From the NCBI GenBank assembly GCA_963556695.1, contig CAUWAG010000012.1, positions 4,774,001 to 4,838,000 of the forward strand: 64,000 bases of DNA. The letters are read 5' to 3'. This DNA comes from Anthostomella pinea. Lineage: Eukaryota; Ascomycota; Sordariomycetes; Xylariales; Xylariaceae. How positions within the stretch are numbered: the stretch's first letter is position 1; each line of letters opens with the position of its first letter. Below are positions 29,127 through 58,853 of this stretch, in pieces. Position numbers and translations under genes: made by a program. Under the pieces are notes generated by a model that was not told the DNA's origin, searched no databases, and was given only the letters and a program-made list of their open reading frames with translations.

Positions 29127-29260
29127 CAGATGTATCGCCAGGGATGGTATCTGATGATCCGCGATCTGTTTGACCCCCATGGGACATGGGTGGCATCATT
29201 CCACCAGGGAATGTACGTTCAGACAGAGATCCCTAGTGTCCAGAAGGTCGTATACGGGAT
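29127..29260 (+). mobile_element. copia fragment (protease to GAG-pre-integrase region), plus orientation
   Basis: This stretch encodes MYRQGWYLMIRDLFDP, GTWVASFHQGMYVQTEI and VQKVVYGI, nearly identical to residues of the full copia copy encoded on the minus strand at about 53,420-53,555. The match begins at 29127, with unrelated sequence to its left, and stops abruptly at 29260. The next copia bases expected after 29260 (CAATC) are found, on the opposite strand, ending at 57913. It is therefore one side of the inversion breakpoint described in the findings. Confidence 0.88.
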
Positions 29261-29480
29261 ACGTAAACGTCTCCTGGAGCTGATGCTGGGAGCGTATAAT
29301 GCCGTCCAGCTGCTGTGCGGCCTCCGCGACCGATTTCCGCTGCTGCGCCGTTCTCGACGCGTGTCCAGCCGCTTTGAGATGGGACTGTACTTCGTTGGCA
29401 ATACAGCCGAAGCCGCATTCCTTACAGATTAGTACCCGAAGCTGGGTAGGATAGATGAACGGTTCCATAACGAAAGTCAT
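29261..29480 (-). pseudogene. detached N-terminal exon of the telomere-linked helicase gene
   Basis: On the minus strand an ATG at 29480 opens MTFVMEPFIYPTQLRVLICK, followed by a zinc-finger-like CKECGFGCIANEVQSHLKAA-GH (C-x2-C then H-x5-H), then ASRTAQQRKSVAEAAQQLDG and QLQETFT, where the copia junction cuts it. This is the region missing from the 5' end of the larger TLH copy that begins at 57,914. When the two are placed end to end the reading frame is continuous. The first fragment at 27,483 carries the equivalent THLKAAGHMSRTAQ and QAGFEFP sequence, confirming the order. In its present position it can encode only a short truncated peptide fused to antisense copia codons. Confidence 0.85.
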
Positions 29481-30232
29481 AATATGTGTCGTATAATGAA
29501 TAGAGCAAGTAGAATATAAAGCAAGTTTTTTATTCTGTTTTTGCATGCTACCGACCTACTTGCGCTGTTACCGCTAGCCTGCGCGCGCCCCTGTCTGGCG
29601 TCGCGTATCCCGGTCGGGGGGCCTCTTACACCAGCTTACCCTCACTTACCCTTACTTGCCCTCACTTAGCCTCACTTACCCTAATCTGGCCCATGCACGC
29701 CCTTCCCGTCGCTGCACTGGGTCGTTAGCGGTACCGTTAGAATCGCCGGATCGAGCTCTATGCCGGAGCGTATTGCGCGTCCTTTTTACGCCGCGGTCGT
29801 AAAAGCAGTCTACTCGATGTCGGGAAAATGCAGCCTACAGGGAAGAGCACGCCGCACGGGCCGCGCGGCACGCCCGGCGGGCGTCGGAGGCCCGAGCGTT
29901 AAATGCAGTCTACTTCAATTCCTTTGGGAATAATGCCTAGGGTCACTCGGCAATTGTTATTGGCCAAAATGCCGCCACTCCTGGGGTTGGTTCGCTTCGA
30001 CCGCTCCTGACACACAAGATGATACACCTTGATATTCGCTAGCTCAGAGCTGGGTGCATATCAGAGGTGTGGCTAATCAAAAAATAACGTTACAGTATTC
30101 AGGCATTCATACGCCCGCGAAAGATCAATGACGCTTATATACATACAGTGCTACCCTACATTCCTAAACCAACAACATCGAGACCAGTATGCCCCGTGAC
30201 CGCGCACGTGATGGTCTATTCTGGTGCCTGCT
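29481..30232. other. TLH upstream region, GC-rich, subtelomere-like
   Basis: This lies upstream of the detached TLH start (reading leftward). It has runs such as GGTCGGGGGGCC and CGGGCCGCGCGGCACGCCCGG, AAAGCAGTCTACT and AAATGCAGTCTACT direct repeats near 29812 and 29901, and the telomere-like array. No coding sequence is supported. Confidence 0.5.
29636..29686. repeat. degenerate telomere-like decamer array
   Basis: Five consecutive ten-base units related to TTACCCTCAC occur: TTACCCTCAC, TTACCCTTAC, TTGCCCTCAC, TTAGCCTCAC, TTACCCTAAT. The core TTACCC/CCCTAA matches the fungal telomere hexamer, but the ten-base spacing shows it is not a simple telomere tract. Confidence 0.75.
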
Positions 30233-31127
30233 TCATCGTTTCAGGTAGGTCACGAACATGAGTTCAGAGTCCTCTCCATCCTTGTCCACATGGCTCCCAT
30301 ATAGCCTGCCTCCTTTGTAAACGACGGTATAGACCTTTTGGATACTGGCGCCCTCGTATATGTCTGCGTAGTCTATCAACGACTGTTGGAACCCCCCGAG
30401 AAGACGGTTGTTTGTCATGAGTTCCTATAGCCATCGTCTGGTCAGCATGGTCCGTTTCCCATCCCGGGCGCCCTTAACCCCACGAGAGCCTCGCTATAGA
30501 TATTTAGATGAGAGAGAGAAGACTCACAGCCCACCCTACCCCACCCGGTATGAATTCGGTTATCTCCTGAGTATTATAGTCCCGATACTCATCATAGTCC
30601 TCATCGTCCGCATAAGGCTGGCTGTGAAGGGTACCAGAGCCGCCTCTAGCTTTCAAGGCTGCCTTGGTTGCCTGTCTAGCACCTGGTTCCTCAACTTTGT
30701 AGTTGAAGATGACCTTTAGGTCATTCGCGTTTCTATTTCCCGTCCATGCCATGTAGTTCGCCAGCCGCAGGTCTCGGGCCCGGAGCGGCGTCTTCCTCCG
30801 TCCGTTCTCCACCATCTGGGTGGTAAAGCTTATATAGGCCCCCTTGGTGACCCCGTACTCGCTTAGTAAGTAATACCCTATCTCGTTCCGGAACGTTGCG
30901 ATGTTCGCGTGCGGCTAGTCCAGGAACTGGCGGCACCAGTCGGTATCCTCCGTACTCCGGTCGCTAATCTCCACTGTCGTCACGCCAGCAGCTTTCACTC
31001 TTTCTTCGAGCTGTTTCGCCTGAGAGGTGGTATCCCTACGACTGCGAATCGTGTCGGCGCCAGTCAATGGCAGGTGAAGGCTTGCCAGCAAACCGAGGCA
31101 TAGCTGGCTTGCGATTTGGAGTCTCAT
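30233..31127 (-). pseudogene. secreted protein gene with one in-frame stop, function unknown
   Basis: Exon 1 (30528-31127) and exon 2 (30233-30424) join across a GTGAGT-to-TAG intron of 103 nt in phase 0, giving 263 codons. The N-terminus MRLQIASQLCLGLLASLHLP with a TGA-D cleavage-like site is a clear signal peptide. The mature part has AKQLEERVKAAGVTTVEIS, YYLLSEYGVTKGAYISFTTQ, LANYMAWTGNRNANDLKVIF and the ending SELMFVTYLKR. It has few cysteines and no domain I recognise. Codon 71 (30915-30917) is TAG, while everything on both sides stays open and spliceable. The stop fits CAG or TGG mutated by a single transition. It could be a freshly inactivated effector-like or defence-related gene, or a polymorphic null allele. 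Confidence 0.6.
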
Positions 31128-31976
31128 CGTGGCGGCTTGGTTATGGCGTCCTGTAAATTCCGACCTTAAAGTCCTCACAGGAGATCTAGGGAGTCTTGAG
31201 GGAATGATGATCGATAGGGTGGTTAACAGGGCGGGTTGTCCATGTAATTATGATGAGTTGACCTGGTCGTCTTTAGATTTTTACTATCAACTTAAGAAGT
31301 GGTCTTTTTATTTTATTTTAAAGGTGTTGTTATCATCGTGATTAGCTAATTAGAGAAAAGGATTAAGTTCCGTAGTTGCAAAATCGAGGCTACGCCACGG
31401 CCCTACGTAAGCTACCAGGAGGTGAAAGATAAGTTCCCGACGCGAATGCCCTATAGGTGTTCAAGAAGGTAATGATTAGCGGTTCTACGTATATCTACAA
31501 TGTAATAGGTAGAACTTTACGCGATAGGAACTTTTTTATAGGAATTTTCATATAGGAACTTTCTCATAGGATCCTTCACCCCATTCTGGAACTTATCTTT
31601 ACCGAACTACAGATTCTACGACCGACATACCCACTTTGCTAAAAATACGCAAGCCGGATTCCTGAGTAGGATTGGACGTCTCCGCTTGTTGCGATCGATG
31701 GTTTTTTTCACGGTGATGTATGGAGCTTGATACGCCAGAGGTATGTGCCCCTTCGAGAGACGGCGTCCCTTAAGTATGAATTCCAATCAAAAGACTTAAA
31801 GCTAAACAATACGACAGTCACAAAAGCAGATCCGCACGCAATATAGAGTTATATTAATAGAATAAATAAGGACTTATCAGCAGTGCTGACTAATTCACAC
31901 ATTACTCGTGCCGGACAGCATTCTACAGGTTAGTTGATCGGGCCACGTACCTATATAGCCAAGGGTGACTTACGCA
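31128..31976. other. intergenic, AT-rich, no gene recognised
   Basis: This 850-base stretch holds short direct repeats such as ATAGGAACTTT (near 31524, 31541 and 31556) and no supportable coding sequence. Confidence 0.5.
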
Positions 31977-32867
31977 TCAGTCCAGTACGATAACATCGGG
32001 CATAGGGACGTCCCCAGACGAGGCTTCATCAGCTAGAGGTGCATCGACAGGGTCCATCACAGTCGCCCAGAAACCGAGATGAACCGCCGGGCTGACCAGT
32101 GCGACAGAATCCACGCGATGGTCAGACGAAGCTTCCACGGCCTCGTCAACTGCTGGAGACTGCGGTGAAGATTCTTCGGGCGCAACATGGCCGTCTGGGA
32201 GGTCCACGTCAACCTCGCCATCCCCTGATTTCATAGTGGCTTTGCAGTGAACACGCTGGTACTCCCTGCAGTCTGAGCAGCAAAGAAAGCGCTCATTATT
32301 GCGCAGTTTTCCGCAGCTGGTGCACAGGCCTGCGTCTTTGTTACGAGCTCTGCGTGAGGTCGCACTCGAGTTCACCTTCACCTGACATCCCGAGCACAAA
32401 ATGAAAGCCTTGCCATCAGTGTCCAGGCCGCAGGACGTGCACAAGACTGCTTCTATACGGCGATAGAAAAAGGGATTGTCGGCTGTTTTTGAAGCGGTTG
32501 ATGGGCGTTCCCGCTTAGTCGATGCACTACGGGCTGCTCTCCATTTGCGTTGGGCCGTCCTGCACTTCTGGCACGATGCCAAGCTTTTATCCTCGCGCTC
32601 CTTGCCACATTTATAACACATCCCTGCCTCCCTGCGAGACGCCTTGCGTGAAGTTTCCTCAGTCCGACAGCTCAGGCATGCCGTGGAAGCGGGATCGTCG
32701 ATCTCGAGTTTGCAAGCCCGGCATGGATTCTTAACACCATCCATACCGACAGACTGAGATTCCGAAGTGGCGTTGTCCGTGCTAGAGGTCATCCACGAAT
32801 ACTTTGGCTTCTTTGGCGTGGGTGGGCCAAAGGGTAGGGGAGTTCGCGGTTTGGTAGAGGAACTCAT
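31977..32867 (-). CDS. protein with four zinc-ribbon-like CX2C-X11-CX2C modules
   Basis: This intronless 296-aa frame runs from an ATG (complement of 32865-32867) to a TGA. Four pairs of CXXC motifs have exactly 11 residues between the two CXXC halves each time: Cys 49/52/64/67, 84/87/99/102, 143/146/158/161 and 182/185/197/200. Each module is followed by a basic, Arg-rich stretch such as RKASRREAG or SRRARNKDAG, and modules 2-4 start C-x-x-C-G. The N-terminus is Pro/Lys-rich and the C-terminal 90 residues are acidic. The pattern predicts four zinc-binding ribbons and a nucleic-acid or protein partner, probably nuclear. I know no named family with this exact arrangement. The gene has no stops or frameshifts despite being surrounded by decayed elements, which suggests it is under selection or recently arrived. 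Confidence 0.7.
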   Translation of the reverse strand: MSSSTKPRTPLPFGPPTPKKPKYSWMTSSTDNATSESQSVGMDGVKNPCRACKLEIDDPASTACLSCRTEETSRKASRREAGMCYKCGKEREDKSLASCQKCRTAQRKWRAARSASTKRERPSTASKTADNPFFYRRIEAVLCTSCGLDTDGKAFILCSGCQVKVNSSATSRRARNKDAGLCTSCGKLRNNERFLCCSDCREYQRVHCKATMKSGDGEVDVDLPDGHVAPEESSPQSPAVDEAVEASSDHRVDSVALVSPAVHLGFWATVMDPVDAPLADEASSGDVPMPDVIVLD

Positions 32868-34078
32868 CTCGATTCTTTTCCTTCAGTTGGTCTTTGGGTG
32901 CAAGATGCACGCCGATGCCGGCAGCGGATCCCGTGGTTATATTTGGCTGGGGCCGGTGTGCCATCGGCCTCGCGTCGAACAATGATCATTGTCATTTTCT
33001 CGGGGTGGCTTTTCATTGTCAACCACGTCCGATCTTGTTTGTCGAGATAACCGTACAAGCTTGACCCAAGGCCCCCTTTCACGATTTCATCAAAGAGGGC
33101 AGCGTCCACTCGTCGTCTTCTCTCGTCGCCTTCTCTCATCGTCTTCTCTCGTCGCCCACCTTCTCTCGAGAACTTCTGAAGCCTCACACATATCCAACCT
33201 GCCGCTTCCATCATACACTCTGCAAGTATGCACATAAGCACACAGACACACACGTATACACACCTAACTAGTTGTTCGGCCACCTCCGAGCTTGTTCTCA
33301 GACCTTCAAGCCCTCACAACTTCAAAGCACACCATACAGCAGCAGCATCATCCTACAACACGTGTAAACTCGCCAATCTGCTCAAGGTTGCAACAGAGCC
33401 TAGATTGTTTTCAAGATTGGTACAATCTCTGAATTTGCTGAGTTGGGAACCATGAAATCCTACAACACCTTCACACAATAATGCCCCGTGCAGCTTGCAC
33501 TTCTGGTGCTGCAACAAGACAACGAATTCCTCGCCTACCTTATACATAGAACCTCGGGTCAACTCGGCAGAGTAACATTAAAGCATCCAAAGACGAGCAC
33601 AGGCACCGACGCGTCTCCCATTGAAATCTTCTCATAAGGTAGTAGCACTGGAGCACTGGGTGTGGTAGACTCACGGGGGTTCCTGAAGTCATTACGGTTA
33701 CATGTCACCGACATGGGTATCCTGGCACGCAAAGCCGTCTTCCGCGCTCGACAACAGGTATGAATTTTCTGCCCAGTGCGATTCGAAACATCCATTAGTT
33801 TGGCGCTCCCGCGGCCCAAGCCTCGGCATCTTGGCGCAGGTAATACAGTTCAGTCTGTTAATTTGCCGCTCGAAACAGACAAATCTTATATGCGGTATTG
33901 AGGGTATTATTCGCAACCTGATGAGGACTGTATGAAGGTGACAGCGTTGTTGCCTATTGGGGTGTGTCTATCTACCTCGCCGTTGGTACGAGAACGCACC
34001 CAAGGGGCTGTAGTGGGGCCTTGATGAGCGACACTCTGCTGTCAGATGCAAGCGAGTTCAGATTATTCAGGTTGTTCT
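32868..34078. other. intergenic, promoter of the zinc-ribbon gene and unclassified sequence
   Basis: A CA-rich stretch (CACACAGACACACACG near 33240) and CTTCTCTCGTCG-type repeats at about 33115-33170 lie upstream of the zinc-ribbon gene. No supportable coding sequence is seen up to the LINE tail. Confidence 0.45.
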
Positions 34079-34636
34079 GTTTTTGTTTGTTGTTTGTTTG
34101 TTTTGTATTAACGTGAGGGGTAGCTCCTCAGTAGTGCAGACCACGCCTCCCAGAGCCTCTGCATCGCAGGGTTGTGGAGGTCTCAAGAAAATAAGTACAG
34201 TCAGTCCCGCTCACGGGCCCATCCCCGTTATTGCGGCGGTATGACCTTGGGGTCATCCATCTGGTCCTTCAAGGAAGGCTATCTATCAGGGGCAGATTGT
34301 TGAAAAGAACTTGCTCTTCTCCACGAATTTTGCCCATTCTGTGCTCCTCTCTCCCAAGTATTGTAAACAGGCTGTTCTAGGCGAGTACCTAGGCAACAAC
34401 CGATTTTTCCCCAGCCTCTTACAAAAGAAAATGTGTTGTGGTGTTTTCTTCTCACCACAGTTGCAGTGGTTGTTCGAGTCTGTATGCCCAAAGCGTTCAT
34501 GGTATCTGGCAAAGTCGCCATGTCCAGATCTGGCTGCTAGAAGTCTGTGTAGAGTGCTCCTCTTAAAAGATATAAGGCCTCTTTCAGTTACTGCATGTGA
34601 GTATACTTCTTGATACCTAGGTTCTGATTGGTCTTT

Positions 34637-37600
34637 CTACCATTGATTGAACTCTTTCTTGCCCTTTCTTTTGAGATCTCTCTTGACCCAAGAGATTGTG
34701 GGAAGGTTTATTGTGTCTGTTTCTAGCATGGCGCCCTCTTTTGCTAGTATGTCAGCAGCCTCATTACCATCAATATCTCTGTGTCCAGGAATCCACTTGA
34801 CGGTCACTCCAGGAGTGTGTGCTGTGGCAAGTTCTTGAAACCGTAGAAAAATGTTCTGTGATGTCTCGGGTGGAGTCCCATTGAGCCCATCTACCACTGA
34901 TGTGTTGTCCAGGCAGACATATAACTGTTTTCTGTATCCAATTGCCCTGGCTGCTGCAAGACCTTGGAGAGCACCATGGACTTTAGCATCCACTACTTCT
35001 GCTTGTAGAAGTCTGTCCCTTCCCCGGTATACTTCTTGTGTAGTGCCGCCTTTCCTGATGGTATAACCCCATCCAGTGCGGATTGTGCCTTGGTCATCCA
35101 ACTGTGATCCATCTGAGTAGATGACAAGGTCAGTGTTCACGTTTCTCTCTTGTAACCATTGCTTGAAGAGCTCTGTTTCTTTGTCTTTGTCTTTGCGGAT
35201 TGGGCGCTTCTTCCATGATGGCCTGGTAAGTATTGGTCTCTGGAAGTCAGGGACTAGCTGGAAGCTCCTTTGTAGCCTTGTTGGATCCTTGCGAGCTTGT
35301 ATTTGGAGCCTGCCAACCAGAGGGTGTCTCTGATCTATTCGACCTAGTCGGAGGCCGTGACGTCGTCTTATTGTCTCTGCAAGAACTCCTGCTGGGGGAA
35401 TCTGCGATTCAAAGTGTAAGATATGTCCAGGGTGTGTTTTCCAGACTGGCAAGATAGCCCTGATCGCCGTTCGTAGTACGGCATCTATTGTTCCAAGAAG
35501 CCCCTTAATGCGACATGCTGATGTCTCACCTAAGCTCCCAGCTTTCTCGATTCCTGGGTACCAGGCCTCCAGGCCATGTGTGAGAATAGGAATAACACAA
35601 GCTTTCACAGCCCTCTTGGTTGACTTTACTGGAAGTCCTTTGACTGTGTTGCATAGTCCTCGAAGGTGATTTGCTACCCTACTAGCTTTCTTGGCCCAGT
35701 AAGAAACATGGTCTTTGAAGTTTAGTTTCCTATCCAGAAGGACACCTAGCCATCGCATGGAATGCTTAGCTGTTTTGTTCATTGTTCCGTGGCAAACTGG
35801 GGGATTGTCTGAGTTCTTTTTCCGTGAGAAGTGCATGATCTCGGTTTTGTCGGGATCAAATTTAATAGCATTGTTATGTCCCCATTGATTGAGTAAATGA
35901 AGATTTTCAGAAGCCTCTGTAGCTGTTTCTTTAAGGTTCTTTCCAATGCAGAGTGTTGCTAGGTTATCTACATATCCAAAGCGTCTTTTTTTCATGCCAA
36001 GTCGGGCACAGATTGGCTCTGTATACAGCATGTAGAGGATTGGAGAGACTGGTGAGCCTTGTGGGAGCCCACAAGTGAGAGCTTTTATGTTGGTCACAGT
36101 ACCTTCAAACCGAACTCTTGCGGACCGCTCGGACATGAACGACTGGACCCATCTTATGAGAAAGCCTGGCCAGCCCTGTTCTCTCATGCGAACCACCAGC
36201 CGTCCCATTAGGGCAGCATCAAAGGCCCCTTTCACATCTGATATGACTACCGTTGCAACGAGGCCTTGGTCAAGGGCCTGCTCAATATCGTGTATGAGTG
36301 CAGCTACCAGGTCAGTGGCAGAGCGCTTTGGTAGAGCTCCAAAATGTTGTGGGGCTAGAATTCCAAGTTTGACAACAAACCAGGTAATTCTTTTCGCAAT
36401 GAGTCGTTCTAGGCCCTTGCCAAGACATGACAGTAGCGATATTGGTCTGTAGGCCCTGGGATTGGAGTAGTCTTTCTTTCCTGGTTTTGGGATCATCACC
36501 ACCTCAGCTACTTTGAATGGTTTAGGGTGGTGTCCAATCAGTAGGCAGGTCTGGAAAAGGGCTCTGATATGTTCACCAATGACTGGCCAGCAAGCTTTCA
36601 GAATCCGTACTGTGAGGGTATCTACTCCCGGGGAGTTGCTCTTGGTTCCTAAAGTGCACCCTTCAGCCTCTTCCAGTCCGACGTGGTATTCAAAGGGGAT
36701 GTGTGGCTTGGGTTGTATGATCTGAGCGGACCAGGGGTCGATGATATCGTTGTCTGAGGTACTTCGTTCAAGCGTGGCTGAGCGTAATGCATTTGCCTTG
36801 CTCTCTTGTGACTCGAATATTTGGTCTCCTATGATGATTGGAGGGGAACGCAATCCTGCTGATAACTTGTGCCAAGAGACAATTCTGTATAGGTCCTTTG
36901 GCTCAGTTGCTGAATTGATTAGAGTCTGCCAGTACTCTCTCCTAGCTTTCCGAACCACGCCGCGAAATTCCTGTCGGGCTGAATTCCGTCCTTCTTGGCT
37001 TGTAGTCTGTTTGGAAAGGGCCCTGTATGTCTGAACAGCTGCTTTGCAGTCATCATTCCACCAAGCAGTGGGCCTAAATTGACGGGGCCTCTTGCCCACT
37101 GTCCTGATACAGCCTTGGATCATGTTGATCAGGCTTTGTGTAAAGGTGTCCACCTGGCCAGGGGATACACCCAGCCGGGGGAGTTCATGAATCCTGGTTT
37201 GGACATTATCTGCCAGCTCCTGTAGTTTATCGTCCGGTACTATCCAATGATTGGCCTTGGGTACTCGGTCCAGATCTCCCTGGATTGGAATGACTATTCG
37301 TAATGTCTTATGATCTGAGGTGCACTGAAGTGCATCATTGACTGAGGCTTCAGCCATGGGGACATCAGAGAACACCAGATCTAGTACATTTCCGTCATTA
37401 TGTGTCGGGACATCTGGTTCAGAAATCAGATCCAGTCCGTGGTCTGCCATAGTTTGTGCAAGTATAGCACTACCATGATATCCTGGATTGCTTGAGTCCC
37501 AGGATGTGTCGCCAGCATTGAAATCTCCAGCTATAACGCAGCCAAAAGGTGGAGTCCATACTTCCAGAATGTCATCCACTTCCTGTGGGTTGTCACATGG

Positions 37601-37975
37601 CCGGTAGACACTGGCAAATGTAATGCCTTGTACCTTGACCCAGGTGATGTCTCGTGTAGCATAGGGCCGAAGTTGATCCGCTTGAAGGTATTTTCTCACA
37701 TAGATGAGAGATCTGGGCCGTGTACTGTCGCTGTCCCAGGAATCCACTGGGGAGTATATATCGTAATTGGGGTGTGTCTTTACTCCCATTCTCCTGCCTG
37801 GTGGTATGCCAACCCAGGGCTCTTGCATCAGAATGATGTCTGCTTGTTCTCCTTTATAGTCAGCCAGGTTGATGGCTAACTCTGTAGGGCCTGCACTCTT
37901 TTGTCCCCCTGCTGTATTCACAGAATGGATGACTAGATGCCCGTGTCGATGTGTTTCGTTTGATGTACCTAACAT
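34637..37975 (-). CDS. LINE ORF2: endonuclease, reverse transcriptase, RNase H (likely inactive)
   Basis: A single open frame of 1112 aa. Residues ~20-230 form an APE-type endonuclease (QEPWVG, YRPCDN, AGDFNAG, SDHKTL). Reverse transcriptase covers ~470-760, with PKPGKKDYSNPRAYRPISLL, SDVKGAFDA and GLPQGSPVSPILY. The active-site box reads FGYVDNLATL (codons 35963-35974) where the family has Y-x-D-D; the second catalytic Asp is Asn. RNase H occupies ~940-1080 with IYSDGS, CLDNTSV and GHRDIDGNEAAD. The domain set, including RNase H after RT, fits the Tad clade of fungal LINEs. The ATG overlaps the end of ORF1 by a few bases, a normal arrangement for termination-reinitiation. The long open frame suggests a young copy, but the Asp-to-Asn change should abolish polymerase activity. 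Confidence 0.92.
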   Translation of the reverse strand: MLGTSNETHRHGHLVIHSVNTAGGQKSAGPTELAINLADYKGEQADIILMQEPWVGIPPGRRMGVKTHPNYDIYSPVDSWDSDSTRPRSLIYVRKYLQADQLRPYATRDITWVKVQGITFASVYRPCDNPQEVDDILEVWTPPFGCVIAGDFNAGDTSWDSSNPGYHGSAILAQTMADHGLDLISEPDVPTHNDGNVLDLVFSDVPMAEASVNDALQCTSDHKTLRIVIPIQGDLDRVPKANHWIVPDDKLQELADNVQTRIHELPRLGVSPGQVDTFTQSLINMIQGCIRTVGKRPRQFRPTAWWNDDCKAAVQTYRALSKQTTSQEGRNSARQEFRGVVRKARREYWQTLINSATEPKDLYRIVSWHKLSAGLRSPPIIIGDQIFESQESKANALRSATLERSTSDNDIIDPWSAQIIQPKPHIPFEYHVGLEEAEGCTLGTKSNSPGVDTLTVRILKACWPVIGEHIRALFQTCLLIGHHPKPFKVAEVVMIPKPGKKDYSNPRAYRPISLLSCLGKGLERLIAKRITWFVVKLGILAPQHFGALPKRSATDLVAALIHDIEQALDQGLVATVVISDVKGAFDAALMGRLVVRMREQGWPGFLIRWVQSFMSERSARVRFEGTVTNIKALTCGLPQGSPVSPILYMLYTEPICARLGMKKRRFGYVDNLATLCIGKNLKETATEASENLHLLNQWGHNNAIKFDPDKTEIMHFSRKKNSDNPPVCHGTMNKTAKHSMRWLGVLLDRKLNFKDHVSYWAKKASRVANHLRGLCNTVKGLPVKSTKRAVKACVIPILTHGLEAWYPGIEKAGSLGETSACRIKGLLGTIDAVLRTAIRAILPVWKTHPGHILHFESQIPPAGVLAETIRRRHGLRLGRIDQRHPLVGRLQIQARKDPTRLQRSFQLVPDFQRPILTRPSWKKRPIRKDKDKETELFKQWLQERNVNTDLVIYSDGSQLDDQGTIRTGWGYTIRKGGTTQEVYRGRDRLLQAEVVDAKVHGALQGLAAARAIGYRKQLYVCLDNTSVVDGLNGTPPETSQNIFLRFQELATAHTPGVTVKWIPGHRDIDGNEAADILAKEGAMLETDTINLPTISWVKRDLKRKGKKEFNQW

Positions 37976-39546
37976 TGACTGACAACAATGGTATCGGCAT
38001 CTCTGGGATGAGTTGTATCTGTTGTGTCGATTTGCATTGTGGTGTCTTTGTTATTATTGTTAGGTGTTGACCCAGCTTGGTTTCTGCCTGCTTCGTTGAA
38101 GGCCTTGGATCTGGCTCTTTCTCCGGCTAGCCTTATTTCCTGGATTTGCTCCCATGTGTGCTTATGGATGGTACCTTTCATAACCTTGGGGCGGGCAGGG
38201 CATTTGTCGAAGTTGGCAGCATAAGGTCCTTTGCAGTTGACACACTTTGGGATTGGGTTTTCGCACTCTCCCTGGTGTACTGTGTTGGCGCAGTGTGCAC
38301 ATACTTGCTTTTCGCATCAGTAATTCCTACCATGGTATCTGAAGCAGCTTGCATACTGGTGAACCTTGGGGGTGTGTTGAATATGCCTTGAGGTCATTGA
38401 GTGGGCAAAAAGCGTGAATGGTTTCCTTGCTGCACTGGGCAGAGAGATTATCCATGTAGTTTCTGGATCAGAATTAATCGTGTTCCTTGAGAGTATGCAC
38501 CTCAGAGGTCTGTCGCCTGTTTGGGCTTCAACTTTATCGGTAACAACAATATCAGTAATATCGATTGTGAACCCTTCTGTACTGATGACCTTTCTTGGGC
38601 ATCCATTGACCTTGTAATGATGCCAGACTGTGTGGGTCTCAATCTTTTGTGCCTTGAGAATGTCGGCAATTTCTTCTTGGAAAGCCAGAAGCTTAGCCTG
38701 AGTTGGCTTGTCCCTTGGGTGTAAGGTAAAACCAGAAGGACACCGTGTCACTTCTCTAAGCTCCTGAGGGTGGAGCTTAAGTCTTCTGTTCAGTGTAGAC
38801 TTGATTCCATAAGGCTCTAAGTGGCTATTATCCATGCGGACAAAGACCCGGAGATCATCCTGCTTCTTCTTCAGTTGGTTGGCAGTGATAAGGGCGCCAG
38901 GCTGTGTTTTCTTCATGGTAGTGTTGACTGTCCATGGATGCTGTCGTTGGCCAGAGGAGACAGCTTGGGCGAAGGTCATGGTGGGCTTCCCTATCCCTAT
39001 CCCGCCAGGAGTGGTCTTTTTTTTGGGCAGATCTCGGGTTTCCAGCCACTCGTTCAGGCATTTGGAGAAGAAAGCGCTGAACTCCTTGGCATGAGAGTAT
39101 AGTTCGGTTCCAGCTTTTTCCAGTGTCTTATCGACTGCTGCAGCACATTCTTGAAACATTGTCATCCTGGCTTCATAGAGATGCTTGTCTTTAGCCAGTA
39201 TTTTGGCTACTTGGTCCTGGCACTTTGAGGAAGAGACCTTGTTCCCTGTATCGCCTCCAATGGCTTGGTCTGTAGAGATTTTGTTTGATTGAGGTACTTC
39301 CATATCAATGATGCTGCTAGTATTAATATTTCGGGATTTTCCTTTCAGAGGGGAAACAATGGTGAAGTCAGCCTCAGAGACCTGTGACGGGCTGCTGTTG
39401 ATGTCGTCGAGCAGTGCCTGGCGGAGCTTGCTTGGGGTTGCCGGGCCATATGTTCTTTTAGGGACCGGGGATTTGAGCACGCCGCCAGTAGTCGTCTTTG
39501 GGACGGCCACTGGCGTATTTGGGGGCCTATCGTGAAGGGGTGCCAT
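37969..39546 (-). pseudogene. LINE ORF1 (Gag-like), one nonsense codon
   Basis: The frame opens at an ATG (complement of 39544-39546) and runs 525 codons to TAG at 37969-37971, interrupted once by TGA at 38317-38319. Before the stop: a Ser/Thr/Pro-rich N-terminus, a coiled-coil-like middle (CQDQVAKILAKDKHLYEARM), and the FVRMDNSHLEPYGIK block typical of Tad-type ORF1. After it: the zinc-knuckle region CEKQVCAHCANTVHQGEC and CVNCKGPYAANF, of which the last knuckle has lost its usual His. The TGA lies between two knuckles and fits CGA-to-TGA. ORF1 proteins coat LINE RNA; this copy would make a protein lacking all intact knuckles. Confidence 0.85.
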
Positions 39547-39650
39547 CCAGCTTGTGAGAAAAATTTTCTGCGCCTTGGCAAGGATAGTCAGGTACTGAAA
39601 TAAATGCCTGTTTTAGTGCAGATATAGAGGTTGCGCCCTAACAGCGGGGC

Positions 39651-39943
39651 GCCAAGAAAAATAGTTGTGCTGGTCTCTTCTGTTTGGCAACTCTCTTTTG
39701 CTCACTGAGCAGACGTGAGCAAGGTCTGATCACGTGACCCCGATCCTCTGGATCACGTGATCGGCTACCATGCGTTGTCTCGTATCGTGCCTGTGTTCCC
39801 ATTGGCCCCCTCTGGTTGCCTTCCCTTCGGGCCTGCCAACGGGCCTGTGGTGATTGTTGGTTCGTAACACTAGTCAATATCCGTGGCTTTGCATTCCGGA
39901 GCGACATGGCCAGGTTGGTATCCCAGCTGTAGAATCCCGACGG
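39651..39943. other. short region between LINE and Hsp70-like remnant
   Basis: It carries a perfect inverted repeat GATCACGTGA / TCACGTGATC at 39728-39737 and 39753-39762, each arm with a CACGTG core (bHLH-type site). No coding sequence upstream of 39944 belongs recognisably to the Hsp70 N-terminus. Confidence 0.5.
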
Positions 39944-41395: not shown

Positions 41396-41603
41396 GATAC
41401 CGGTATTTCATCATTTTGGATCCGGATACTTACTCGCCAACTCGGATAGGCCCCTGCCTATTCTACGAAGTGAACCTCTTTAAGATCTCTGCTTTGGCAT
41501 TATCCAATGTGCAGTTCTAAAGCATAACAAGCGGCATAAATGTCACATCGTCTGGAACAAGGTAAGAGCATACTGCGTCCCCAGTATTACCATCTAACCG
41601 TAC

Positions 41604-44741: not shown

Positions 44742-44757
44742 TCAAGGTCATATACAT
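44742..44757. repeat. target-site duplication, right copy
   Basis: Exact repeat of the 16 bases at 44546-44561. Confidence 0.9.
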
Positions 44758-47640: not shown

Positions 47641-47642
47641 CT

Positions 47643-47687
47643 GTAGCTGGAATTCCTCTCCTTAATAGAACACTTTGAAATCTCACA
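47643..47687 (+). mobile_element. 45-bp copia LTR scrap
   Basis: This is the terminal 45 bases of the copia LTR, in the opposite orientation to the LTRs at 49458, 50019 and 55187, ending TGAAATCTCACA instead of TGAAATCTAACA. It directly abuts the WD40 fragment at its upstream side, so it marks the point at which that duplicate was cut. Confidence 0.85.
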
Positions 47688-49066: not shown

Positions 49067-49457
49067 ATGGCCTTCGACCTTCAGTCTGGCATATTCAGTG
49101 ACTGGTTACATACAGTCCTTGGGCCCCTGGTGCCCCTAATTCTAGAAAGCTGCGTGTCGGTCATGCTTAAAGTCGACCTTGATCACAAGGAAAAGAAGAC
49201 AAGCAAAAAGTACAAATCTGTACATGGGATGATGAAATCCGTGATGAAGATCCCTAAAGCACTCGTAACGATCTACAGGGCGTTTGGGAACCCTTGGCAG
49301 TTCTTCCTGATGCCAGCTTTTCAGATAATAGCTATTATTATCTCCTCGCAAGTGGCTGACAAAGCGCAAAGTCGAAGACTCGGATGCGAGACAGAGCTGG
49401 ACGATGTGCTGACCAAGGCGCTGGCCGCACTGGAAGCAGTTGGAAAATTGGATGTAC
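49067..49457 (+). pseudogene. hypothetical gene cut by a copia LTR
   Basis: The ATG at 49067 (context GACCATGG) opens MAFDLQSGIFSDWLHTVLGP. Two hydrophobic stretches (about residues 14-35 and 78-96, FFLMPAFQIIAIIIS) flank a basic middle (KVDLDHKEKKTSKKYKSVHG), and an amphipathic helix LDDVLTKALAALEAVGKL follows. After about 130 codons the frame enters the copia LTR at 49458 and stops at once. No continuation is visible on the other side, because that end of the copia copy lies beyond a rearrangement. The family is not recognised; it was probably a small membrane-associated protein. Confidence 0.5.
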
Positions 49458-50018
49458 TGTAAGATTTCAAAGTGTTCTATTAAGGAGAGGAATTCCAGTT
49501 ACTCTGGAGCGGCCAGAGTGGCCCTATATATATCCAAGATATTAAAGGAAAGGATACGTGGCCTTATATTGGCCACGTATATGACAGAGTCACAAATGGG
49601 AATAGTGATCCTGAAGGATGACTATTGATGGGCTAACATAGCCCAGAATCCAATACGCCCTCTCAGACTGAGGGAATTAACATAACCAGAATATCACCCC
49701 TCTATATGAACCAGTCCTAGCAACTCCAGAAACTTAAAGAACCTTGCCTTTATCAAAGCTTTGGTAAGACCGTCTACAGGTATCTCATTAGTTCTAAGAA
49801 GAGAGAGCCGTATATGGACTTCTGAAATCTTCTGACGAATATAGTGTTCCCTGACTCGAATGTGCGTAGTTCGACAATGGAATTCAGCGTTCTGAGCTAA
49901 GTGAATAGCTCCGGCACTGTCTGAACGGATGTTGATAACATTCAGAGTGAATCCAAGTTCCAGCATTAGTTCTTGTAGCCAGGCAGCCTCTTTGACGGCT
50001 TCAGAGAGTGCGTAGTAC
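49458..50018 (-). mobile_element. copia copy B, 3' part with LTR
   Basis: A 198-bp LTR (49458-49655) begins TGTAAGATTTC on the plus strand and ends CCAATA. Next to it, on the minus strand, is the end of an RNase H domain: HLAQNAEFHCRTTHIRVREH and LTKALIKARFFKFLELLGLV. The element is interrupted at 50018 by copy A, and its sequence resumes at 55385. Confidence 0.9.
50014..50018. repeat. AGTAC target-site duplication of copia copy A (left)
   Basis: AGTAC at 50014-50018 is repeated at 55385-55389, exactly outside the two LTRs of copy A and within the RNase H coding region of copy B. Confidence 0.92.
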
Positions 50019-50216
50019 TGTTAGATTTCAAAGTGTTCTATTAAGGAGAGGAATTCCAGCTACTCTGGAGCGGCCAGAATGGCCCTATATATATCCAAGA
50101 TACTAAAGGAAAGGATACGTGGCCTTATATTGGCCACGTATGTGACAGAGTCAGAAATGAGGATGGTGATCCTGAAGGATGACTATGGATGGGCTAACAT
50201 AGCCCAGAATCCAATA
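50019..50216 (-). repeat. copia copy A 3' LTR
   Basis: 198 bp, identical in length to the LTR at 55187-55384 and to that of copy B at 49458-49655. Confidence 0.95.
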
Positions 50217-50254
50217 CGCCCTCTCAGACTGAAAGAATTAACATTACCAGAATA

Positions 50255-53212
50255 TCACCCCTCTATATGAACCAGTCCTAGCAACTCCAGAAACTTGAAG
50301 AACCTTGCCTTTGTCAAAGCTTTGGTGAGACTGTCTGCAGGCATTTCATTGGTTCCAAGGAAAGAGAGCCGTATATGGCCTTCCAAGATCTCCTGACGAA
50401 TGTAGTGTTCCCTGACTCGAATGTGCTTAGTTCGACAATGGAATTCAGTGTTCTGAGCCAAATTAATAGCTCCAGCACTGTCTGAATGGATGTTGATAGC
50501 ATTCAGAGTGGAACCAAGTTCCAGCATCAGTTCTCGTAGCCAGGCAGCCTCTTTGACGGCTTCAGAGAGTGCGTAGTACTCTGATTCCACAGTAGACTGA
50601 GCCATAACAGTCTGCAGCTTGGATGCCCAGGAGACAGCGCCCCCAGCAAACGTGAATAAGTAGCCTGAGGTGGATTTGGCGCTGGTCTTGATGCTTCCAG
50701 CATAGCTGGCATCACAGTAACCAACCAGCAGATCCGGAATCATCTCAAGAACCTCCCAGTGGGTCTTCCCGACATATTCAGGACCTCCAAATTTGATCCC
50801 AAGATCTAGAGAGTGCCACAAATAACGAAATAGGCGCAGAGTGGCCTTATATTGGGCTGAGCCAGGATTGTAAAGGTATCACGAGAGAACACCCATAGAG
50901 TATGCAATATCTGGTCTTCTATATGACGTAAGGAAGTTTTTAGAACCGATCAGGGACTGGTATGTCTGAATATGATATGTATCGATCTCAAGGTCTTTGT
51001 CCAAGGACTCCATCTATTCCACTGCTTGAAGAGATATCGGCACGTTCATCTTGCCAGTGTTCTGCTGGTTGAACGCCTCTTCAGTCCTTCTCATATATGT
51101 CTGTTGAGAGAGATATAATGTCCTCCCAGCTTGGTTTCTGACAATGTGGACTCCTAAGAAGTGTTCAACAGCTCCCATGTCCTTCATCTCAAATATAGAA
51201 CCTAGTTCCTTCTTGAAGACAGCGATCCCATCATGATTAGCCCCCAGAATAAGGAAATTATCGACGTAATTGATCACTATAATGCCACGGCTGATGTTGA
51301 CATAGACTGCGTTGTCAGAGACCAGAGGGTCGAATCCGAGGTCCTTCAGAGCGCTGCGAATGCGCTTCTGCCACTGCCTGGGGCTCTGCTTGAGCCCATA
51401 TAGCGGTTTCGCAAGCTTCATAATCATACCAGGTCTCCAGTTGATGGTATTCTCATCTGGATACATCTCAAAGAAGTCAGAGAGACCATCAGGCGTCTCC
51501 ATGAAGATCTCTTCATCCAGTTCTCCCATCAGGAAGGCAGATACAGCATCCATCTGGTCAATTTCCCAGTCCAGAACGGCAGCAATGGCTAGAAGGAGCC
51601 TCCAGGTGGTAGTACGAGCGCCTGAGGCCTGGGTTTCGAAATAGTCGAGGCCATGGCGTTGCATGAAGCCTCGTACAACCACCCTAGCCTTGTACCGAGA
51701 GGTGTTGCCGTCAGAGTCCCTCTTCCGCTTATAGACATTGCGGCTAGAGAGAGTTTTACGCCCAGCAGGCAGATCAGACCTCCACAAAGGAATAAAGGTA
51801 TTATTGCGCAGCAACGCCCGTATCTCTGTGTGAGTGCCATCCAGCCATTGAGGTGCCTCGGCAGACTCCATGGCTTCCTTGTAGCTAAAAGGCTCGTCAT
51901 TACGGGGAAGTGCCTGATCAGGGTCAGAAGACGGCCAATTGGCATAAGATGCCTCGATCGTAACATGTGGAGATATGCCAGGGGTGGAAGACTCGGACAC
52001 GTAGTGGTTGTGAGTCCTCCGAGTGCGCCCTCCGGAGAGTACATTCTCTGGGTTGAGCCCTGATTGGATTCTTGACCTCGGAGCAGCCGTTGGTGCTACT
52101 TCTTGACGAGGTGGTTCAGATGATAGAAGAATCGAGTCAGCTAGAGCAGTACTAGGCTCAGGGTTGCTATATCCAGAGTCAGAATGATGACCATCATCAT
52201 TATCAGAAGCGTCAGGGGACCCAAGAGGGGTCCCTAACGTGACAACTGGTTGGGGTGAATCATCTCTACCATCCCTTCCGTTATCTGACTCGATATATAT
52301 ATGCTGAGGATCGTGAGCGCCCTCTGGTGAAGACGGCGCCGGCAGATCTTCAGCATCGGGTCTGGTTGTCTCATAGTCATCGAGTGTACCACGGAAGTTT
52401 GGAAAGATGTGGATCAAATCTCTTGAAAGTACATACCCATCCAAAATCTCAAGATGGGCAGTAACTACAACCTTTCTCAGGTGTGTAAGATACACCTGGT
52501 ACTGGTTGGAACCAAGGGAACGAAGAATACGACCTCTCCTTGCGTGTGGAGTGGTCTTGTCTCCCTTAGGGCGGCGCTGCTGCGGCAAATGGACCATAGC
52601 GGCCTGCCCGATTGACAGTAAATTCGTCAAATCAGGCTTGTTATCCTTTCTAGGGTTCAGATCGTCAAAGAAAACTTCAAAGGGAGTCTTCTTAACGCCC
52701 TGGAGGAAAGATGTATAGCTCACATTGAGCCTATCACATACGGCAGGTCCAACAACCGGCCAAAGGGCTTCAGGTAGCCCAGAATCCTTCATAATACTGC
52801 GAATGAGAGCGTGTATAACGCCAAAGGATCTCTCAGCCACTCCGTTCTGCTCGGGAGTGTATGGAGCGCTGACTTCGAACAGGATACCACGTTCAGCTCC
52901 CCATTGCTTGAATCTCGCGTATTCAGAACCACCATTCATTCGGAATCGCTTCGGATAACGCCCGTACTGGGTGTGAGCGCATTCACAGTAGCGAATGGCT
53001 TGGTCGGAAGCTTCCCCTTTCTTCTCGTGAGGGCAGTACTCCCTCAAACGAGACTTGCCATCCACAAATACGGTGGCATAGAGAGAACCATTATAGCCTT
53101 GGACAGAGTGCTTGGCTGTATCTATATGGACAAGGTCTAAAGCATGATCTGGATGTTTCTGTTCAACTCGAGAGACTAGCGACGTAGATTGGACTCCAGA
53201 CATTCCAGACAA
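50255..53212 (-). pseudogene. copia copy A Pol: integrase, RT, RNase H
   Basis: From 53212 downward the frame encodes an integrase core (HIDTAKHSVQGYNGSLYATV, then MNGGSEYARF where copy B still has Asp, and SAPYTPEQNGVAERSFG), a GKEY-type linker with a Ser/Pro-rich region, and RT (AIAAVLDWEIDQMDAVSAFL, YGLKQSPRQW). The RT active site reads INYVDNFLIL (51257-51268) in place of Y-V-D-D. A TAG at 51014-51016 ends this frame; copy B has CAG there. A TGA at 50879-50881 stands where copy B has CGA. RNase H follows (VGYCDASYAGSIKTSAKS, QSTVESEYYALSEAVKEAAW, KHIRVREHYI) to TAG at 50255. It joins Gag-Pro by a frame change near 53200. Inactive by several independent lesions. Confidence 0.9.
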
Positions 53213-54939
53213 GTGAATTCTTTTGCCCGCTCTTGTACATTTGGCGGCAATTCAATCCCTTTGGTGATACTGGCTGTCTTGATCAGGTCACCAATAGACC
53301 GGTGGCCAAGTCTTGTATGCCAGTGGTGGAGTAGTCTCAGCGCCACAGATTTGGCTTGAGAGGTCAGTTCCTGGGAAGAATCCTCGGATACCATATTGGT
53401 GAACACGTCCGGGGCTTGATTGATCCCGTATACGTCCTTCTGGACACTAAGGATCTCTGTCTGAACGTACATTCCCTGGTGGAATGATGCCACCCATGTC
53501 CCATAGGGGTCAAACAGATCGCGGATCATCAAATACCATCCTTGGCGATACATCTGGTCTCCCGAGAGAATATTGATTGGAAAGGAACGCACAAATAGTA
53601 CTCCAGAGATTGTCTGAGTGACGGTATCACCGTTGGAGGTAATGAATGGTATCTCCACGTCGCCAATACCTTGAGGAGTAACAGGGCTTCCTCCAGTGTT
53701 AAAGGGGACCAGGTCAGGGTCCATTCGAAGGCGAGTAAACCACTTCTTGCTATTGCAAATAGGAACGGTAGAGCCTGTGTCAAACAGCCATGAGTCTGTG
53801 CTTGTCGTGGCATGAACGATGTCGATCAGATTGGTACTCGCTCCCTGGTTGGCGCTATGTGGTCCTTGAGTGAGGACAGATTGACTGGAGATGGCTTTAT
53901 CGGCATAATTGCACCATTGAGCGGCGTCGGGAGCGCCAGTGCGTCCACTCTGGTGAGTGGGAGCGCTGCTTGAAGGCCTTCCATCTTTCCTAGCCTTCTC
54001 AGAGGCCTGGATGATCTGGCTGAGGATGCGTTTGTTGCATCCAAGGTGGCCCTTCTTCTTGTCAAGCTCTCCGCACTCATAGCACCAGATAGGATCCGTG
54101 GTGTTGCTGTTGGAAGAGCCCTGGTTGACTCCAGGGGTTCTGGGGCCATCAAGAGATGGGCGATTACTGCCTTTCCCCTTGTTCTTTCACTTGCTCTTGC
54201 CTTTACTAGGCGTAGCAGGCTTGCCAAAGTTAGTGGCAAAGGTCTCATCTTGAGCCTTGCGAATCTGTATCTCCTCCTGGAGCCGGTACAAGAGATTCTC
54301 GGTCGTAGGGAAGATTCCACGGTTATAATCTTTTGAGATTTCGCGGTGAAGGGTTGGAAAAGCCGTCCGAATAGCAGCCAGAAAATTGGCAATGCGAATA
54401 TTCAGAGGATATGTGATATTTTGCCGCAGGACCTTGTCCATTAGTCTGCGGTAGTTGCCCACGAACTTGTCTCCATGGTCAGGGAATCGAATGGCAGCCA
54501 GTTCATCTACAACGGATGAAACTGCGTCAATTCTCGTGCCTGAATATGCCTGTCGCAAGGCTATCCAGATCTGACCAGGGTCAAATAAACCCGTGATACG
54601 AGAATCAGGGTCAGACTTGATGTTCTAGGTGATAGCGAGGTATAATTTTGACCTCTTGATGCTCAGACTAGCATCCAATTCAGGGGGCTTGGAAGAGGCT
54701 CCCGCGGAAGGTGTGGCTGGGGCGTCGACAGCTCCAGTTGTGGCCTTATATGGTTCCTTCTCGTCCGCCTTGATGGCTTCAAGGATAAGAGACCAGAGCC
54801 CGAGAGTAGTGAGCAAATGCTCCATCGTTTGGGCCCAGACCTCCCAGTTCTCCTTGCCGACGAGCTTCTGATGGTCTTGGAGGCGAGGGATAGAGGTGGA
54901 TGTAAAGGCGAGGGCCGTCTCTGGGGTGGATTCAGACAT
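53176..54939 (-). pseudogene. copia copy A Gag-protease
   Basis: The ATG complementary to 54937-54939 opens MSESTPETALAFTSTSIPRL, then the Gag core (KENWEVWAQTMEHLLTTLGL, YSGTRIDAVSSVVDEL, NIRIANFLAAIRTAFPTL), a zinc knuckle-like CYECGELDKKKGHLGC, and an aspartic protease with the SWLFDTGSTVPI active site. The GAG-pre-integrase region follows (LLHHWHTRLGHRSIGDLIKT). Two stops interrupt an otherwise continuous frame: TAG at 54625-54627 and TGA at 54187-54189. Both fit C-to-T changes of CAG and CGA. Gag builds the virus-like particle and the protease matures it. Confidence 0.9.
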
Positions 54940-55176
54940 AATGTAAAAAGGATAATACGTCGTAAGGCTAGCCTACAAATAAGGCAAAATATAAGCCAAG
55001 GAGCGACCTCTTTCTGTATAAAAAGAACAGTTACGACGGAGAAACACTTGAAGGCTTGTGGCAACAAGGGTAGCTAGTTCTGGAGGCGCGCAAGCAGAAA
55101 GAGGGTGATCAGAATGAATCAGACCAGTAGAAAAAGCTTAAAAGGTAAGGGCTGCTGGAGGTCGTGATCGATCAGA

Positions 55177-55186
55177 GATGCTACCA
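55177..55186 (-). other. copia primer-binding site
   Basis: Immediately inside the 5' LTR of copy A, the element strand reads TGGTAGCATC. TGGTAGC complements the 3' end (GCTACCA) of fungal initiator-Met tRNA, the usual primer of Ty1/copia elements. Confidence 0.7.
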
Positions 55187-55384
55187 TGTTAGATTTCAAA
55201 GTGTTCTATTAAGGAGAGGAATTCCAGCTACTCTGGGGCGGCCAGAATGGCCCTATATATATCCAAGATACTAAAGGAAAGGATACGTGGCCTTATATTG
55301 GCCACATATGTGACAGAGTCACAAATGGGGATGGTGATCCTGAAGGATGACTATGGATGGGCTAACGTAGCCCAGAATCCAACA
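55187..55384 (-). repeat. copia copy A 5' LTR
   Basis: 198 bp, plus-strand TGTTAGATTTC to CCAACA. It carries the intact TG...CA ends. Confidence 0.95.
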
Positions 55385-57913
55385 AGTACTCTGATTGCAC
55401 AGTAGATTGAGCCACAACAGTCTGCAGCTTGGATGCCCAGGAGACAGCGCCCCCAGCAAAGGTGAACAGGTAGCCTGAGGTGGATTTGGCACAGGTCTTG
55501 ATGCTTCCAGCATAGCTGGCATCACAGTAACCAATCAGCAGATCCGGAATCATCTCAAGAACCTCTTGTGGGCTCTTCCCGACATATTCAGGACCTCCAA
55601 ATTTGATCCCAAGATCTTGAGATATTGAGCTGAGCAAGGGTTGTGAAGGTATCGCGAGAGAACACCCATAGAGTATGCAATATCTGGTCTTGTATATGAT
55701 GCAGGAAAGTTCTCAGAACTAATCAGGGACTGGTATGTTTGAATAGGACATGTATCAATCTCAAGGTCGTTGTCCAGGGCCTCCATCTGTTACACTGCTT
55801 GAAAAGATATCGGCACGTTCATCTTGCCAGTGTTCTGCTGGTTGAACGCCTCTGAAGTTCGTCTCACATACGTATATTGAAAGAGATATACTGTCCTCTC
55901 AGCCCGGTTTCTGACATGTGGACTCTTAGGAAGTGTTCAGCAGCTCCCATGTCCTTAATCTCAAAGAAGTCAGAGAGACCATCAGGCGTCTCCATAAAGA
56001 ACTCTTCATCCAGTTCTCCCATCAGGAAGGCAGATACAGCATCCATCTGATCAATCTCCCAGTCCAGAACGGCAGCAATGGCTAGAAGGAGCCTCCAGGT
56101 GGTAGTACGAGCGCCTGAGGCCTGGGTTTCAAAATAGTCGAGGCCATGGCGTTGCATAAAGCCTCATACAATCAGCCTAGCCTTGTACCAAGAGGTGTTG
56201 TCGTCAGAGTCCTTCTTCCGCTTATAAACGTTGCGGCTAGAGAGAGTTTTACGCCCAGTACGCAGGTCAGTCCTCCACATAGGGATAAAGGTATTATTCC
56301 GCTATAGTGCACGAATTTCTGTGTGTGTGCCATCCAGCCATTGGGGAGCCTCAGCAGATTCCATGGCTTCCTTGTAGCTAGAAGGCTCGTCATCACAGGG
56401 AAATGCCTGACCAGGGTCAGAAGAAAGCCAATTAGCATAAGACGCCTCGATCATAACATATTGAGATATGCCAGAGGTGGAAGACTCGGCCACGTAGTGG
56501 TTGTGAGTCCTCCAAGTGCGCCCTCCGGAGAGTATATTCTCTGGGTTAAGCCCTGATTGGATTTTCGACCTCGGAGCAGCCGTTGGGGCTATTTCTTGAC
56601 GAGGTGGTTCAGATGATATAAGAATCGGTTCAGTTGGAATAACACTGGGCTCAGGGTTGCTGTCTCCAGAATCAATCGGAATGATTATCATAGTCAGAGG
56701 CGTCAGGAGATTCAAGAGGGGTCCCTAACGTGACAACTGGTGGAAGGGTATCATCTCTACCATCGCTTCCATCATTTGACTTGATACATATATGCTGAGG
56801 ATCTTGAGCGCCCTCTAGAGAAGATTGCATTGACAAATCTTTAATATCAGGTCTGGTTGTCTCATAGTCATTGTGTGTACCACGGAAATTTGGATAGATG
56901 TGGATTGAGTCCCCTGAAAGCACATACCAATCCAAGATCTCAAGATGGGCAGTGACTACAACTTTTCTCAAGTGCGTAAGATACACCTGATACTGGTTGG
57001 AGCCAAAGGAACGAAGAATACGGCCTCTCCTTGCATGAGGTGTGGTCTTGTCTCCCTTGGGGCGGCGCTGCTGTGGCAGATGGACCACAGCGGCCTGCCC
57101 GATTGACAATAAATTCGTCAGATCAGGCTTGTTTTCTTTTCCAGGGTTCAGATCGTCAAAAAAGACTTCAAAAGGAGTCTTCTTAATACCCTGAAGGAAA
57201 GATGTATAGCTCACATTGAGCCTATCACATACAGCAGGTCCAACAACCGGCCAAAGGGCTTCAGGTAGCCCGGAATCCTTTATAATACTGCGAATGAGAG
57301 CGTGTATAACGCCAAAGGATCTCTCAGCCACTCCGTTCTGTTCAGGAGTGTATGGAGCACTGACTTCAAACAGGATACCACGTTCAGTTCCCCGTTGCTT
57401 GAATCTTGCGTATTCAGAACCACTATCTATTCAGAATCGCTTTGGGTAACGCCCGTACTGGGTGTGAGCGCATTCACAGTAACGAATGGCTTGGTCAGAA
57501 GCTTCCCCTTTCTTCTCATGAGGGCAGTATTCCCTCAAATGAGACTTGCCATCCACAAATACAGTGGCATAGAGAGAACCATTATAGCCTTGGACAGAGT
57601 GCTTGGCTGTATCTATATGGACAAGGTCTAAAGCATGATCTGGATGTTTCTGTTCAACTCGAGAGACTAGCGACGTAGATTGGACTCCAGACATTCCAGA
57701 CAAGTGAATTCTTTTGCCCGCTCTTGTACATTTGGCGGCAATTCAATCCTTTTGGTGATACTGGCTGTCTTGATCAGGTCACCAATAGATCAGTGGCCAA
57801 GTCTTGTATGCCAGCGGTGGAGTAGTCTCAGCGCCACAGATTTAGCTTGAGAGGTCAGTTCCAAGGAAGAATCCTTGGATACCATATTGATGAACACGTC
57901 CGGGGCTGGATTG
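55385..57913 (-). mobile_element. copia copy B, remainder, cut by the inversion breakpoint
   Basis: The sequence resumes copy B exactly at the duplicated AGTAC and runs through RNase H, RT, integrase and GAG-pre-integrase on the minus strand. An in-frame 279-bp deletion at 55958-55965 removes the RT active site. The integrase box still has Asp (IDSGSEY), although a TGA occurs just before it. At 57913 the element stops in the middle of the pre-integrase region and TLH sequence begins. The missing neighbour of this breakpoint is the copia fragment at 29127-29260. No gag or 5' LTR of copy B remains. Confidence 0.92.
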
Positions 57914-58853
57914 TGAACCGGACTGGGCGGCGAACCCATTCTTGCAGCCACCGGCCGAGGACGGGTTGGCTTGCCGGTCGTGTCGGTACGTCTGCCGGGC
58001 CGAGAAGCTGATGAAAGAGCACTACCAAAAAGAGCATTCGTGGGTTAACCCGCGTAACCGGGGGAGGCCGGCCGGCTCTTTTCAAGGCCCGGGCCCAGCA
58101 GCCACGAAAAGGAAAGAAGGAGAACGAGGGGATGACACAGGTCTGCCGTGGCGTACGCAGGTCCGCTGCCAGCGCTTGTTTTCCGGGCGGGCGGCAAGCG
58201 GCTGGTTTGAGGTGGAGCGGCCATTGAGCAAGCAGATCGCGGCCGCAGAAGCGGATGTAGGAACAGGCAGCAGCAGCAGCATTGATAGCACTGGCACCAA
58301 CAGCGATACGTGGCAGCTCATGCTAGCAGCATACGACGCCAAACTGGCAGCAGAAGAGGAGGAGCGGCGACGGAAGGCGGACGGGCCCGGCGGAATCGAT
58401 GCGGACTCGGCTTGGATACGGGAGATGGGGTGGGCCAGTCATCTTGAAGGCAAGGATCTGGTAGTATTGCACGCTGCTAGCTTGGGCCCGCTGTCGAGGG
58501 CCGCACTAGAGAGGCTGCGTGACACGGCATTAAAGGACGAGCAACAGCAGCTGACACGGCTTGCCGAGAGCTTCGACCGGGAGGTGGCGCGGTGCACGGC
58601 ACGGCTGGAGCTTGTGCCGCACGAGACGCTGCGATGGCTGGCAAGCATCGACCCGGGCAAGCCGGCCGGGCGGCCGTTCGGCGTCAAGGAGCACGCCAGC
58701 TCGATGGACCGGTACAAGGGGTATTGGAAGCGATATCTGTGCTACTGCTTGCGGGCGCTGCAATTAGGGCGGGAGGAGGCGGCGGCGCAGCACGCGGTGC
58801 GGTTTTCCGACCCGCAGTGGGGCCGGCTGGAGGCGGTCGCGCAGCTGCTGGAC

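Follow-up and report, generated by a model that had tools for sequence, protein, structure and literature searches.

A probable 28.65-kb inversion with breaks inside a copia element and a subtelomeric helicase gene in Anthostomella pinea

How did parts of a copia retrotransposon come to be joined to parts of a helicase gene at two points some 28.65 kb apart, near the end of a single contig? The question is raised by a 64-kb stretch of the Anthostomella pinea (Xylariaceae) genome, here called the window, which covers C9:4774001-4838000 and whose right edge lies ~20 kb before the right end of contig C9 (4,858,380 bases). The names TLH and RecQ for the helicase are taken from an earlier sequence-only reading of this locus and from the literature, and the Pfam matches obtained here are DEAD and Helicase_C. 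With these two domains and several copies near chromosome ends, the TLH family has the features of subtelomeric helicases, and one further copy lies away from contig ends (C2:4.27 Mb). The assembly analysed comprises 16 contigs and 53,736,082 bases and, since the table in the genome paper gives 19 contigs and 53,727,737 bases, it is a slightly different version from the published one; the available parts of that paper describe strain F5, nanopore Q20 reads at ~80x with a filtered read N50 of 8,291, processing with Flye, Racon and Medaka, a largest contig of 8,924,063 (C2 here) and an N50 of 5,428,629 (C14 here) (PMC10763133). Our analysis suggests that positions 29261-57913 have very probably been inverted, with one break inside a copia copy and the other inside a TLH gene. 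The features on which this rests are as follows.

29127..29260, plus strand: left part of the interrupted copia copy, internal to the element, 134 nt long and truncated at 29127
29260..29261: left breakpoint joint, copia followed by antisense TLH, no base in common
29261..29942, minus strand: TLH 5' end, with upstream region and N-terminal codons
29261..57913: the putative inverted segment, 28,653 bp, holding a LINE, copia copy A and part of the second copia copy
About 49.4-54.2 kb: copia copy A, inside the segment
53423..53556, minus strand: stretch of copy A that serves as reference for the copia break
55172..57913, minus strand: right part of the interrupted copia copy, with further matching pieces as far as 55172
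57913..57915: right breakpoint joint, antisense copia, then base 57914, then sense TLH
57915..62350, plus strand: TLH remainder, with the rest of OrsD, a 12-bp minisatellite, DEAD and Helicase_C, interrupted by stops

On the copia side the two halves fit together without a gap. The left piece is 96% identical to copy A 53556-53423 and the stretch 55958-57913 is 91% identical to copy A 51465-53422, so that the halves end on adjacent nucleotides of copy A and 0 nt are lost. Among the matches listed, the left piece has 29 at 90-98% (copy A included) and two at 88%, and the two halves directly abut in 29 of the 31 other copia copies (again with copy A), while the remaining two, both on C8, carry a 5-nt diverged patch between them; none of the 31 is therefore broken at this point. 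These 31 are the copia copies with both halves, drawn from two copy searches (best 40 of 44 and 40 of 40) after leaving out, in the first, the window itself, three TLH matches, one on C5 and four partial diverged ones and, in the second, the window itself, three two-sided TLH, four short TLH and a partial copia at C8:852062; with 40 candidates scored per search, the copy counts are lower bounds. The equivalent of the break in copy A lies within an open frame (53176-54186), away from the long terminal repeat (LTR) ends, and an insertion of copia into the TLH gene was rejected because the joint is not at an LTR end. At its other side, position 29127, the left piece abuts DNA (28547-29127) that is 85% like C5:3817619-3818219; since the piece is only 134 nt long and meets foreign sequence there, this copia copy had lost its 5' part, either before the inversion or in addition to it. 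On the 3' side of copy A, window 49454-50580 consists of two tandem 566-nt copies (92.6%), perhaps a doubled LTR.

The TLH side shows the same reciprocity with a small deficit. Both TLH halves adjoin in all three other two-sided copies among the matches listed (C16:6170923/6170924, C2:4272298/4272300 and C9:21741/21743), and the gap between the aligned ends is exactly 5 nt in each of these relatives as opposed to a single base, 57914, in the window. The identities of the N half to the C16, C2 and C9-left copies (90.2, 91.2 and 87.2%) and of the C half over its first 929 nt (92.2, 92.1 and 86.6%) place the two at similar distances from each relative, and for this reason they look like one gene. 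The break cuts an OrsD domain, of which profile positions 3-67 of 114 are found on the left (E 2.9e-08) and 82-113 on the right at an E of 3.5e-05, below the curated cut-off. A protein search returned 15 matches, four of them aligned across the break; gene models from A. pinea C2 (P0121), Monosporascus (P0123) and Daldinia (P0128) span it with two residues between, and the fourth protein, P0124, is too diverged at the break for a reading. The minisatellite within the TLH coding region occupies 58852-59049 with 16.5 copies of its 12-bp unit.

These alignments bear out the joints described in the sequence-only reading, with copia running to 29260 and antisense TLH from 29261, and antisense copia running to 57913 before sense TLH, and its proposal that 29261-57913 is inverted is supported by the reciprocal halves, their opposite orientation and the unbroken copies elsewhere. 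Its further statement that no base was lost holds for copia, whose halves are adjacent in copy A, and fails for TLH, which is 4 nt short of all three relatives. Turning the segment back would consequently not recover the TLH reading frame, contrary to what had been proposed; the supposed in-frame C codon came from counting 57912-57913 for TLH although the flip assigns these bases to copia. Nor does the evidence bear out two intact genes, as copia is cut off at 29127 and the right part of TLH carries stops (introns left aside).

Both joints are peculiar to this locus. A perfect match to the left joint sequence is present at a single site in the genome; at 2 mismatches there are three sites elsewhere, which we regard as noise since the reversed control gives 6. 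The right joint likewise has a single occurrence and zero other sites at up to 3 mismatches. The joints are thus unique, and they are reciprocal products of two ancestral sites brought together in opposite orientation, with near-exact adjacency of the halves and continuity of the same sequences in relatives. The reciprocal double complementarity of the halves lies well outside what chance would give: with a single pair of copia halves and a single pair of TLH halves we obtain roughly 7e-7, the product of a zero offset within 2876 nt of copia and a fit within 4 nt in ~4400 nt of TLH, before any correction for the number of copies.

Among single events, an inversion explains most simply why the halves are reciprocal and lie in opposite orientation, and because the copies elsewhere are unbroken the direction of the flip is fixed. 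One double-strand break would have fallen in the 5'-truncated copia copy and the other within the N-terminal codons of a subtelomeric TLH gene lying in the same orientation ~28.65 kb nearer the contig end; the segment between them would then have been turned round and its ends rejoined, with copia losing 0 bases and TLH a net 4 nt (or 5 with one added). In the order of events, copia was in place first and the inversion came later. That the two breaks were simultaneous, and by which pathway they were repaired, we infer from the products.

As to that pathway, the ATTG/AT microhomology that had been proposed at the junctions does not stand: by eye, no base is common to both parents exactly at either joint, and the longest word they have in common close to the breaks (within ~20 nt) has 5 nt, a length found or exceeded in 1296 of 2000 random pairs. 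Microhomology-mediated end joining, for which there is neither an overlap at the joints nor a nearby word above chance level, was accordingly set aside. Inversion through recombination between inverted repeats fared no better, as none of the five pairs of inverted repeats found in 26000-60500 (40 nt or longer) links both breakpoints. The joints have the character of non-homologous end joining, with no extended homology, 0 nt lost from copia, a net 4 nt from TLH and one unassigned base, and the likely route is end joining of two breaks without useful homology.

Several observations weigh against the inversion or weaken the case for it. It is read within one genome assembly, and typical reads of the published data, given the filtered N50 of 8,291, would not span both joints (PMC10763133). 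TLH is 4 nt short, and base 57914, at the right joint, matches neither parental sequence. The orientation of the conserved TLH termini described below hardly supports a flip, because both directions occur: among the 17 sites within 100 kb of contig ends (20 listed, three dropped as lying beyond that distance), 11 point outward and six, including the window copy, inward. An assembly artefact, in which the assembler or a chimeric read fused copia to TLH, draws on the richness of the region in repeats, the C9 right end without telomere repeat in the assembly and the filtered read N50 of only 8.3 kb (PMC10763133). Such an artefact is nevertheless quite unlikely here, as the only word that copia and TLH have in common near the breaks is the 5-nt one at chance level, two misjoins would need to complement each other with an offset of only 0 nt in copia and 4 nt in TLH, and an error in the orientation of inverted repeats would produce no hybrid joint. 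Assembly misjoins usually arise in shared repeats.

A more elaborate single repair event, whether replication with template switching and several joints or a multi-break rearrangement that included an inversion, would account for base 57914 matching neither parent and for the further unrelated sequence that the copia piece meets 134 nt away, at 29127. The joint at 29127 requires no common cause, though, and no inserted stretch longer than one base is seen at either breakpoint, which makes such an event highly improbable. Two unrelated events, with separately truncated copia and TLH copies whose ends match by accident, are conceivable in that both families are multi-copy and include partial copies; set against this, none of the 31 other copia copies listed is broken here, the TLH halves are complementary within 4 nt, and the rough chance value given above for a single pair of each family renders the coincidence exceedingly improbable. 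Homologous recombination between inverted repeats, or a programmed site-specific switch, has a vanishingly small probability: the left copia piece and copy A do form a 134-nt inverted pair, but this pair is absent from the right breakpoint, and the joints, being copia/TLH hybrids without common sites, contradict either mechanism. An inversion between the copia copy and the TLH gene remains our preferred reading.

The TLH sequence at the left breakpoint ends in a feature that extends beyond this locus, since a conserved 5' terminus opens the TLH unit in the A. pinea genome. A 15-nt terminus word allowing up to 1 mismatch finds 18 sites (reversed control, 2), among them window 29941 (minus strand), window 27368 (plus strand), C2:16209, C4:4740184 and C5:837; 15 of the 18 lie less than 100 kb from a contig end, in zones that make up ~6% of the genome; of the contig ends, only the left one of C9 was seen to bear telomere repeats. 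A longer terminus word adds one more diverged site in mid-contig, C9:941887. In one TLH subfamily an 11-pair hairpin lies 3' of the terminus, and across 14 aligned copies (11 distinct) 98.3% of cells are paired. These are 14 of the 20 termini, the others being those of the other subfamily (window 29941, L010, L011, L012 and L086) and the poor match L075:1645 without hairpin. Two pairs of the stem show double changes. The covariation score and the number of doubly changed cells are reached by 0 of 500 shuffles; 276 of the 500 reach the number of double-change pairs, and all 500 the number of further pair types. These last two measures therefore give the hairpin no support.

The DNA immediately outside the terminus differs between sites (by eye, 17 of 18 sites). 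Beside the terminus in the window, 29946-31230 is 82% like C16:4344465-4345730, and the match ends at the terminus. C16:4345731-4346150, where the sequence would resume past a TLH unit, has no match in the window or in 7 other loci; insertion of a TLH unit into C16-like sequence with both flanks is unsupported, the far flank not having been recovered. A title and abstract search found no literature pairing such helicases with such a terminus. The terminus may resemble a Helitron end. That TLH genes ride on discrete mobile or chromosome-capping units, one of which the inversion would have split, is a tentative idea that we hold to be rather less than probable; should such units prove mobile, the conserved terminus would matter more than the inversion itself. 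On that same idea, breakage in TLH units may be a recurrent source of subtelomeric rearrangement.

Other TLH sequences also lie within the window and elsewhere in the assembly. A second relic, of another subfamily and with its own terminus at 27368, occupies window 27481-28258 (plus strand), 0.87 kb left of the copia piece. TLH sequences also lie in mid-contig at C2:4268500-4277500 (L070), 4.27 Mb into the 8.92 Mb of the largest contig, possibly left over from a chromosome fusion or an earlier chromosome end. In another relic at that locus (L070:7687-8737, C2 near 4.276 Mb) a 267-nt piece is inverted relative to the adjoining piece, the two being 8 nt apart on the TLH scale; this TLH copy has perhaps undergone a smaller inversion of its own. 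Two further features of the window are these.

14142-15239: arginase-type open reading frame, identical (100%) to an A. pinea protein over 89% of its length
34090-39668: LINE, inside the inverted segment

The right end of C9 (L074:4422-10000) is the 3' tail of a LINE 98% identical to that at 34090-39668 and has no telomere repeats. At the left end (L075:1-1641), 240 nt of telomere repeat lead straight into an open frame whose product has a reverse transcriptase domain, perhaps that of a telomere-attached Penelope-like element. Rfam (gathering scores) and tRNA scans of the 64-kb window gave no match.

The rearrangement is real and unusually clear, but of an ordinary kind. Its value lies in the exact breakpoints and relative order of events that a single genome can yield at a subtelomere, where interrupted repeats can themselves supply the standard against which past rearrangements are read. 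In literature listings, which included 11 papers mentioning A. pinea, we found no report of it and no closer case, and in the available text of the genome paper the strings 'transpos' and 'telomer' are absent and 'inversion' appears once, for the mixing of tubes (PMC10763133). In Fusarium graminearum, the portions of the study available to us describe rearrangements that overlap with repeats and are over-represented in the last 1 Mb before chromosome ends, some of them with breakpoints inside coding sequence (PMC11152077). The A. pinea inversion resembles these in lying near a chromosome end, among repeats and with a break in coding sequence; the Fusarium events come from a comparison of isolates, whereas ours is read at base resolution from the reciprocal broken copies of one genome (PMC11152077). 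It is likewise similar to canonical non-homologous end joining, as set out in the accessible sections of PMC9779921, in having no long homology and a small change at the joint, and unlike the studied cases it is known from its products alone. Telomere-linked or subtelomeric RecQ helicase families, whose genes are repeated near chromosome ends and in many cases truncated, are also described in the consulted parts of work on Fusarium oxysporum (PMC12857005), Mycosphaerella (PMC4522978) and Agaricus (PMC7473861), and the Agaricus genes looked at there had no domain besides the helicase core (PMC7473861). The A. pinea copy, by contrast, carries an OrsD-type N-terminus, and it differs from these families in being cut, as we read it, by an inversion.

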